From Mya arenaria (Eukaryota > Mollusca > Bivalvia > Myida > Myidae): a stretch of DNA of 64,000 nucleotides. Numbering within the stretch: position 1 is the first letter of the stretch; each line of letters begins with the position of its first letter. A program made the position numbers and the translations under genes. The notes beneath the pieces were generated by a model. It had not been told where the DNA came from, made no database searches, and saw only the letters and a program-made list of their open reading frames with translations. The DNA lies in the NCBI RefSeq assembly GCF_026914265.1, contig NC_069136.1:24998701-25062700 (forward strand), given 5' to 3'. Of the stretch, positions 20,022 to 23,500 are shown in pieces.

Positions 20022-20552
20022 CTAGCATGTGCTAAGACAGTACCATGACAATAAGTCGGGATCGTTAGAGAAATTTCCCCTCAAATAATCGTGATCCTCA
20101 TTTCCTCCACTTTCTTGTGTGTCTGGACTTTCCACATGACTGCCTTCTGTGTTACTATTTATAGACACGACATTAGGGGATTCCCTCCAGTATGCTCTTG
20201 CTTGATCACCTATCTGATCAAAAGATAATGCCCTGGTGTCGATATTATCGTTTTCATCGATCATCTGATTTATATCGGCACTATAAGATTGCGCCTCGGA
20301 TGGACTACAGCTATTTAGCAAATGTATATTAGAGTCTGATCCATAAATAGAAGCCGTACTGGAGTTCACCGACACACGGTCAGCATTGCCTCCCCTGGCT
20401 GAAAAACCAGTCTCTGACATCACATCAGAGTTAGTTCCTCTCGATGATATGACATCATCAGACTGGTTTACAAGTAAACTATCACAAGAAGATCCAATAT
20501 TGACTGGGTCACTCCCGCCTATTTCAACATGCTCCCCAACAGAGTCCTCTAG
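20022..20552 (-). CDS. Candidate stop-codon readthrough extension of importin alpha (176 codons)
   Basis: Immediately after the importin alpha TGA (20555-20553) the same frame stays open for 176 codons, from CTA at 20552-20550 to TAG at 20024-20022. I checked codons 20552-20418 one by one: there is no stop. The stop context is UGA CUA G, the best known readthrough-promoting context in animals. The extension has no lysine, 7 Arg, about 32 Ser and about 30 Asp/Glu, so it is predicted acidic and disordered. In such AT-rich DNA a Lys-free 176-codon frame is unlikely by chance and suggests selection at protein level. The internal ATG at 20420 is in the same frame. Alternatives: a spliced isoform that removes the TGA, or a downstream cistron. 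Readthrough itself is inference. Confidence 0.7.
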   Translation of the reverse strand, partial: LEDSVGEHVEIGGSDPVNIGSSCDSLLVNQSDDVISSRGTNSDVMSETGFSARGGNADRVSVNSSTASIYGSDSNIHLLNSCSPSEAQSYSADINQMIDENDNIDTRALSFDQIGDQARAYWRESPNVVSINSNTEGSHVESPDTQESGGNEDHDYLRGNFSNDPDLLSWYCLSTC

Positions 20553-20555
20553 TCA
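20553..20555 (-). promoter_or_regulatory. Leaky-type stop codon context UGA CUAG
   Basis: On the minus strand the coding sequence ends AACTTC TGA CTAGAG. UGA followed by CUA(G) is the established high-readthrough context of several animal genes (for example human AQP4, MAPK10, OPRL1, MDH1). I did not look for a SECIS element systematically. The residue is not expected to be selenocysteine because family members end at this point. Confidence 0.7.
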
Positions 20556-23500
20556 GAAGTTAAACCCCTCTTTTGGCACAGCGGCCGTTGGATCAAACTG
20601 GTACCCATCAGTGCCAACCTCGGGTGCTAACGCGGGATCATCTTCAACCTGTAGGAAAACAAACAATTCAAATTTAATGTGATTAAACTAGAGGGTAATA
20701 GTGTCATTTAATGCTATTCTTTTGTGTACATTTTTAATTGAATGTAAATGAAACCAAAATGTTTCATTAAATAATACCAAAGTTAGCATTTAAAATACAA
20801 TTTGTGGATTCTTACATCTCCCGAAAAGAAGTTGTCAATAATTTCATAAGCCAACTTGTAGATTTCTTCGTTCTCATGATTTTGTAGAAGTTCGATCTTG
20901 TCCAAGCCTGAAGAAAATAAAATAAGTCTTTTAATTTACACACAGGATCCTTCATTGTTATCCAGCTTTGTCTTTAAACAAACCTCCTCATCTCCATAAT
21001 ATCCTCTTCATCTGCCTAAATAACAACTTTGTAGAACACTGTAGTAAAAGTTATTTGCATAATTGCAGGGCCTTTTTTTCCCAAAAGGCCAGAAGCTGGG
21101 TTTTTTCAAAATAGCCTCTGAAATTCCTCATTTCCATTTCTTTCTCTTTTTTTCTACTCAATTTGTTCCCAAAATGTTTGAAAAAATACTCTTGAGAATT
21201 TTTCCCCACAAATAGCTAGGCTATCTTCCAAAAAACTGGAAAAAGCCCCTAAATTGGCAAATTGATTACATGTCCCTTTTAAAACAATGACACACTCAAT
21301 ACTGAGGACAAGATTAAATAGGAGATGTTATCAATGGCATTGCAAAGTTCAGCTTAAACTAGACCCTCTTATCAAAGCAATCTAAAACTGCACAAACTGA
21401 CCTCACAATACAGTGATTGAAACCAATACAGTGATTGAAACTAATTACATTTTGTGTTCCCAAAACTCATCCATGGTTTATAAACATAGGCATTCAGCAC
21501 TAAACGGACATTCCATAGTTGGGTTAAGCTACATTTGCAATCATGTACATTTGTTGAAAAAAAATATCATCATTTGAGAACACATGTTTAAGAGTGATAG
21601 GTACCCAGGGAAAACCAAGTAAAACAACCTGGGATGCGCAGCAAAAAGAAACACTAACACACTTACATACCAAAACCATCATCAGGAAAAAAAGACAAAC
21701 CCAAATGCACCTGTCTGACTCACAGGCCAACTGGTAAATTGTGAGTGGGTTTGTTAGTGGATTTTTGTCTAAAATTCTTCACAAACCTGGAACAAAAATT
21801 ATCAAAAAATATTTTTTGATCATTCTTTATGTCTGAATCCCCTGATGAACCCACCTCCACACTCCTCGATCATCTGTGCAATGCTGTCAGCATCATCGCC
21901 CGCCATCTTGAGGATGTTGTTGATGCCGTCCAGCACCACCTGTACCACTTGCGTGTCCTTGACATTCAACAGATTACAGAATGGAGCAATCACGCCTGCC
22001 TGAACGACGTAGCTCACCTAAAAACACACAGAAATTTGCATTACGGCATACTGCAGAGTTAAATGCATTATGTGAAAATACTTAAGCTAGATGGCCATGT
22101 ACACATTTTATTCCTATCCATATATGGCCTCTTTTTGGTTTGTTTTGTTCGCTTTAGCTCCATTGTCAAAAGCGGGATGCCAATGCAAATTTGTAGAAAG
22201 AGGAAACTAGGATGAAATAGGGAGCATCCCCATCACACTATTTACCAAAAAAATGTTATTTGTATAGATCAGACACTAGGCAACAATTTGAATTTTAAAG
22301 TTCTGTGGTAAAAAAAGAAGAGAAAATCAGCTGAAAAGAGAAAAATTCCTCATCACAATATAAACAAACATTATTGTTTTTGTATAGATCAGATATATAA
22401 GGCAACAATTTCAATTTTTTTTTAAATTTTGGTAAAAAAGAGAGGAAATCAACTGAAAAGAAGACCATTGGCATCCCTGTCAAAACAGCTGATTTTAATG
22501 AGAGTCAGAAAGTGATTTTCAGTCTAGGAACCAATGAGGATGTGCATTATGAGAGGTCTTGTGAAAATCACCCCATCAATGAAGTTTGTTTAACAAGAGA
22601 GCCCCAGAGCCAACGTCAACGATCATCTGTTATTGATTTCCTGAGGCTAGCAACAGGCAAAACTCAACAATTATTTAAGACTGATTTTTAAGCCGTGTTA
22701 TGCATGTGCTTTTGTCTGTGGCAACAAATTATTTATTCAAATTATTTTGAACATTGTTTAACCATTTTTGAGTTATCGCCAATAAGATATATTAACCCTT
22801 CCTTTGAAAACAATTGGAGCTAAAAAAAAAATCATTTTTAATTTTTAAAAGAAACAGATTTAATATCTACAGTTAACAATATTTGGTTTTCAATTTTTTA
22901 CAAAAAAAAAAAAAAAATGAAAATCTTGTTTAAAATGAGCTGGTTTTTGTATCATTACATTAATTAATTAATTACATGAACAAACAATACAGTATCATAT
23001 GCATATCTTAAGAATTGATAAAAAACAGACCTTGCATCATATTATGTCAAATTATGTAAATGAGAGAATGTCAGTGAAAATCAGTCATAAGTGAGAAACA
23101 GTCATTCTATTGAACATTTGAATAGTATTTCACTATTTAATTTCTTCAATTCTATTTCATGGAAAAATCTTTTTATCTTCTAAATAGAGTGACTGCCTTC
23201 ATGTTTCTGGACGAAAACACAAATGAATTAATAAACTTCCTGATACAGTTGCAAAAAATTAATTAAAAGATCGGAATAAGATAAATCCTTTAAGATAATC
23301 CTTTATAGAGAAATAATAGTTAATGTTCTGACTTTATCATCTTTGGGTAATGAATATAATATTTATGACAATTTCTAAACTTTTAAACATAATATATATA
23401 TAATATATAGACATTAACGGTCATTACAAGAAATGGACAAACATGAAACCAAGAACACAAGAAAACACATACCATAGCATATCAGAACACATACCATAGC

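Follow-up and report, generated by a model that had tools for sequence, protein, structure and literature searches.

Probable readthrough of the importin alpha stop codon in a clam group

Introduction

In mammals, the sequence UGA-CUAG is described as an efficient readthrough motif in four genes, OPRL1, OPRK1, AQP4 and MAPK10, and readthrough of OPRL1 amounts to about 31% in HEK-293T cells (PMC4132726). In the Drosophila gene dfr, an element that stimulates readthrough was mapped to +39 to +189 (PMC13170385). An annelid neuropeptide case was proposed earlier, as cited in PMC5100048. The main texts of PMC5100048 and PMC3840789 mention neither importin nor karyopherin nor Kap-alpha, and that of PMC13170385 does not mention importin. 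Among the papers listed in literature searches, titles and abstracts showed no readthrough importin alpha and no study of readthrough in a bivalve.

The locus studied here lies in a 64,000-nucleotide stretch of the genome of the clam Mya arenaria (the window), which contains a gene for importin alpha. The C-terminal region of importin alpha binds the export factor CAS and serves the return of importin alpha to the cytoplasm.

Results

The importin alpha gene and its stop codon

The gene is read on the minus strand from a start Met at about position 34065 to an ordinary stop codon at 20555-20553. The gene and the features at its 3′ end are:

20553..34065, minus strand: importin alpha gene (importin subunit alpha-4-like, Mya arenaria), 14 coding exons, from comparison of the exons with P0008
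20553..20648, minus strand: last coding exon, with the terminus PKEGFNF-TGA, from reading the sequence
20549..20555, minus strand: leaky stop context TGA CTAG, equal to the motif of the four mammalian readthrough genes (PMC4132726)
20025..20552, minus strand: candidate readthrough extension of 176 codons, acidic, Ser-rich and without a Pfam domain, from the open frame and its relatives
20022..20024, minus strand: TAG closing the extension, from translation of the frame

Exons 3–14, with GT-AG borders, encode 482 residues that are wholly contained in P0008 (importin subunit alpha-4-like of Mya arenaria, 520 residues), and the gene is 100% identical to P0008 over the compared part. The positions of exons 1 and 2 were assigned by visual inspection. 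P0008 has the domains by which an importin alpha is recognised, namely the IBB domain (2.8e-23), the Arm repeats (1.5e-80) and Arm_3 (1.1e-25). The closest solved structures to the protein encoded in the window are named importin alpha-3.

The seven bases from the stop codon onward are TGACTAG. A preliminary description of the window had reported the conserved end GFNF-TGA at 20555-20553, followed by CTAG and by a frame open to the TAG at 20024-20022, and this reading was reproduced. The composition that it gave for the extension (0 Lys, 7 Arg, about 32 Ser and about 30 acidic residues) agrees with our count of 0 Lys, 7 Arg, 32 Ser and 30 Asp plus Glu. Its remark on AT-rich surroundings also holds, with a G+C content of 33.0% in the 500 bases past the extension versus 43.0% within it. 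That UGA CUA(G) is a strong readthrough context, as it had stated, is in line with the efficient readthrough described for UGA-CUAG in the mammalian genes (PMC4132726).

The frame is open beyond chance expectation. When the extension was shuffled 20,000 times with its dinucleotides preserved, no shuffle stayed open for 176 codons, and neither did any of 20,000 such shuffles of the 528 bases 3′ of it; the remaining two forward frames over the extension contain 12 and 24 stops. The motif TGACTAG occurs at three sites in the window, after which 176, 13 and 5 codons are open. Among all 2,521 TGA triplets of the window (both strands, any frame), the importin TGA is followed by the sixth longest open run. 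Two of the five longer runs lie in protein-coding-like ORFs with Pfam matches, and three lie in tandem repeats. As a control, importin-alpha-like loci were collected by an Arm_3 search of the Mya genome (1.216 Gb, 18 contigs), which gave three besides the present one when near-identical pairs were counted once, a weak pair on contig C4 among them; the two that could be read to their stop meet the next stop after 1 and 23 codons.

Codon usage gives weak support for coding of the tail. With a single gene of 482 codons as the training set, the extension frame scores +0.061 log-odds per codon, the best other frames +0.033 and +0.030, and the flank −0.21 to −0.39. A score restricted to synonymous choices is −0.080 for the tail, compared with −0.162 for a recoded null (P 0.016) and 0.204 for the training gene. 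The tail has no match in Pfam up to E 0.1, and within the Mya genome it was found at this locus and, in two pieces, in a neighbouring partial copy only.

The tail is conserved as protein

The strongest support for a tail that is probably coding comes from its conservation as protein. Searched alone against 5.8 billion proteins, the tail gave 32 candidates, four of which matched at E 1.5e-22 to 3.5e-15 with 38–44% identity. At E ≤ 1, seven of 2,546 candidates then matched a profile of these five sequences (the Mya tail and the four relatives), and three of the seven were new. Over aligned tail residues, the Mya tail is 38–51% identical to the seven relatives, and all pairs among the eight sequences are 32–65% identical; with mutual identities this low, the relatives are not copies of one sequence. 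The alignment of the eight has 20 invariant columns. Among its conserved blocks are a CD pair early in the tail, a GS block, the motif DEN[DE]N, one Trp and the C-terminus, the last of which is present in all eight:

20025..20063, minus strand: conserved C-terminal motif of the tail, DPDLLSWYCLSTC, with the pattern D-x-DL[LM]-x-WY-x-L-x-T, in 8 of 8 aligned sequences

Lysine, absent from the Mya tail, occurs one to three times in each of the seven relatives. The lengths of the tails differ by whole residues. The preliminary description had looked to conservation across species and to frame-preserving indels for support of its candidate, and both are borne out at the level of protein, in seven relatives with a shared C-terminus and in whole-residue differences of tail length. 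In a test asking whether amino-acid replacements are conservative, 28 of 28 pairs lay above the shuffled mean (median z 4.46); the preference of the aligner for similar residues biases this test, and we gave it no weight. The tail profile also matched the histone chaperone NASP, but at E 0.27 this is not significant.

The site of the stop codon in the tail relatives

Three of the seven relatives (P0003, P0006 and P0007) contain importin sequence and read PKEGFNF-W-L-x-D across the site at which the Mya protein stops. The residues straight after it, W-L-x-D ... VE, are conserved in all three. The other four begin past the stop site, so that linkage to importin is seen in three of the seven. These relatives are known as protein only, and the W at the site is most probably a UGA that a gene caller translated as Trp, but it could instead be encoded by TGG. 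A UGA read as Trp is made likely by P0006, which also has a W at the column where the other seven tails end and then continues for 20 further residues. In P0003, the first 19 residues are unlike importin and resemble an intron's 3′ end, with CCCFQ ahead of the exon; they include three W, which favours TGA over TGG at the stop site.

The importins themselves point the same way. Among the best 120 of 673 importin matches, four end in PKEGFNF, those of Mya, Mactra antiquata and Ruditapes philippinarum included, and all four stop there, which favours TGA over TGG in the spanning relatives. Each of these 120 matches covers at most 40% of the query region, namely its importin part, and none has the tail. 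Four others (P0023, P0061, P0095 and P0119) end in GFNF without PKE, and the importins of an oyster, a freshwater mussel, Solemya, Haliotis, Patella, Octopus and a chiton end in GFKF. From the PKEGFNF ending we tentatively place the feature in the heterodont clams. The DNA of the tail relatives was not found by tblastn in 267 pattern-matched stretches from viral contigs, nor in 288 pattern-matched stretches from genome contigs.

RNA folding around and after the stop

Directly 3′ of the stop codon, no special RNA fold was found (z 0.39 and 0.34 against shuffles). A stable hairpin is predicted further downstream:

20405..20470, minus strand: stable RNA hairpin, 83–148 bases past the UGA, a possible local helper, from folding compared with shuffles

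The hairpin has a folding energy of −30.9 kcal/mol (z −6.05; 0 of 500 shuffles equally stable) and is the strongest among 53 windows scanned, three of which fall at z < −2, two of those covering this hairpin. The neighbouring partial copy retains it at −26.2 kcal/mol. The stretch that encodes its arms is shared with P0003 only (in one alignment) and is absent in four relatives, so the hairpin could be at most a local helper.

A neighbouring partial copy and other features of the window

A stretch of about 6 kb, window positions 15727-21700, has a 98% identical second copy on the same contig, at C15:24975000-24981069, a distance of about 39 kb. The copy comprises the last two importin exons, the tail and the 3′ flank or 3′ UTR, which lie in and around C15:24979295-24979823, with an identity of 96–98% in protein over two pieces and of about 98% in DNA. 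By tblastn, with 24 kb checked, it contains importin residues 450-520 only, and its tail carries a one-base insertion that causes a frameshift. It may be a recent partial duplication or an assembly duplicate. We considered the frame-shifted copy as a refutation of constraint on the tail and rejected this, the copy being too young and too partial.

Arm-repeat loci elsewhere in the genome also occur in pairs with equal scores on the same contig, about 0.8 to 4 Mb apart, on C6, C3, C4 and C8. The pair on C6 (C6:29456346 and C6:31982504) is nearly identical in sequence. These pairs are either large recent duplications or uncollapsed haplotypes.

Within the window, an 81-base tandem repeat of 10.7 copies occupies 49235-50102. 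Its unit is a multiple of three, an open run of 234 codons starts on the minus strand from a TGA at 50051 within it, and it looks like a 27-residue protein repeat. A 310-codon open run at 5846-6775 on the plus strand encodes a KY-like immunoglobulin domain (PF23265, E 4.6e-26), and an open run at 40493-41317 on the minus strand encodes a partial reverse transcriptase domain (PF00078, E 1.7e-8), a retroelement fragment. A tandem repeat of about 96 bases covers at least 2.7 kb of the left flank and continues into window positions 1-231.

Discussion

The locus combines three features of a readthrough gene, namely a leaky stop context, an opening beyond chance and an extension conserved as protein. 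The preliminary description had proposed importin alpha as a candidate for programmed readthrough, and the motif, the open frame and the protein-level conservation support this. Counting against it are the frameshift in the tail of the partial copy, the ordinary fold directly past the stop, the weak codon usage, the absence of the hairpin stretch from four relatives, the start of four of the seven relatives past the stop site and the chance that the W of the spanning relatives is TGG. The probable reading, at a probability of 0.83, is functional readthrough of the importin alpha stop codon in a clam group.

If the relatives had a Trp codon (UGG) and made the long protein only, the UGA of Mya would be a recent nonsense change and its tail a fresh relic or weakly read. 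The W at the site in all three spanning relatives, seen in protein sequences, fits this. However, the importins with the same ending, including those of Mactra and Ruditapes, stop at GFNF, the tail is missing from the best 120 of 673 importin matches, P0006 has a W at the end of its tail as well, and the three W of P0003 fall within 19 residues before the exon that have no importin match. In addition, the Mya tail is fully open and the leaky motif is present. We regard this explanation as improbable, although less so than those that follow. Slightly less probable again is A-to-I editing that turns the UGA of some transcripts into UGG, so that the tail would arise from RNA recoding and not at the ribosome. 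One A-to-I change suffices and would yield the W that gene callers report, and the DNA, which alone does not discriminate, is compatible with it; recoding by RNA editing is known in molluscs (cephalopods). Editing leaves the exact UGA-CUAG readthrough motif unexplained, however, and ADAR sites are usually in double-stranded RNA, whereas the RNA around and just after the stop folds no better than its shuffles (z 0.39 and 0.34).

Removal of the UGA by splicing and a start codon inside the tail are unlikely, and rank below editing. One acceptor-like site in the tail, with 10 of 14 preceding pyrimidines, does have in-phase GT partners, but the last exon has seven GT sites that each agree with at most 3 of 7 donor consensus positions, whereas the genuine donors of the gene are mostly GTAAGT- or GTATGT-like. 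In the three spanning relatives, conservation starts with the codon immediately following the stop, and the first ATG in the tail frame is codon 45, past conserved residues. A fortuitous, untranslated open frame is very unlikely. Although longer open runs follow five other TGA triplets of the window, the shuffles of both models gave no opening of this length in 20,000 each, and the tail has protein relatives down to E 1.5e-22 that are only 32–65% identical to one another. Selenocysteine at the UGA, with which the stop codon and the continuing frame would agree, is also unlikely and has the lowest probability of all, close to nil: no SECIS element, the mark of a selenoprotein gene, was matched up to E 5 in window positions 17500-21000, and the other PKEGFNF importins stop at this site.

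Under stop-codon readthrough, which we prefer, most ribosomes would stop at the UGA and produce the ordinary importin alpha of 520 residues. At the UGA-CUAG site, a fraction would decode the stop by a near-cognate tRNA and carry on for 176 codons. The product, an importin alpha of 697 residues, would have an acidic, Ser-rich tail beyond the CAS-binding C-terminal region; by its composition alone, the tail is probably disordered. The pool of tailed adaptor would be minor. We infer that the spanning relatives also have UGA at the site and that the tail is translated. The acidity, the absence of Lys in Mya and the conserved C-terminus lead us to guess that the tail is disordered and regulatory and carries short motifs for binding, the C-terminus foremost, which might change the partners of importin alpha, its recycling or its place in the cell; an effect on recycling or localisation is likewise a guess. 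The odds lean only slightly towards an efficient, perhaps regulated leaky stop that gives importin alpha in these clams a form with a dedicated, conserved acidic tail. Partner choice or recycling would then be set at termination, and the hairpin of Mya may tune it.

If the main reading is true, an essential transport factor has a long isoform that is unannotated, and 176 conserved residues are missing from the gene models of these clams. It would also provide a mollusc case with exactly the motif of vertebrates, and would raise the question of why importin alpha needs an acidic tail at a low level.

With importin alpha-3 (KPNA4) and its mollusc orthologues, the Mya protein shares the 520-residue body, the IBB domain, the Arm repeats, the atypical last Arm and the GFxF-type end. 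It differs in the tail, which is absent from all of its best 120 relatives among 673. The Drosophila and Anopheles readthrough genes have in common with this locus comparative evidence for a protein-coding stretch past the stop (PMC5100048, PMC3840789). Drosophila dfr differs in its stop codon, which is UAG where the Mya importin has UGA, while the range of the dfr element would span the Mya hairpin (PMC13170385). The mammalian genes OPRL1, OPRK1, AQP4 and MAPK10 share the UGA-CUAG stop, followed in frame by an extension that is conserved as coding sequence (PMC4132726); they belong to other gene families and another phylum, and the Mya extension, of 176 codons, is known from sequence alone. 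Readthrough genes are a known kind, and the importin alpha tail adds a case.
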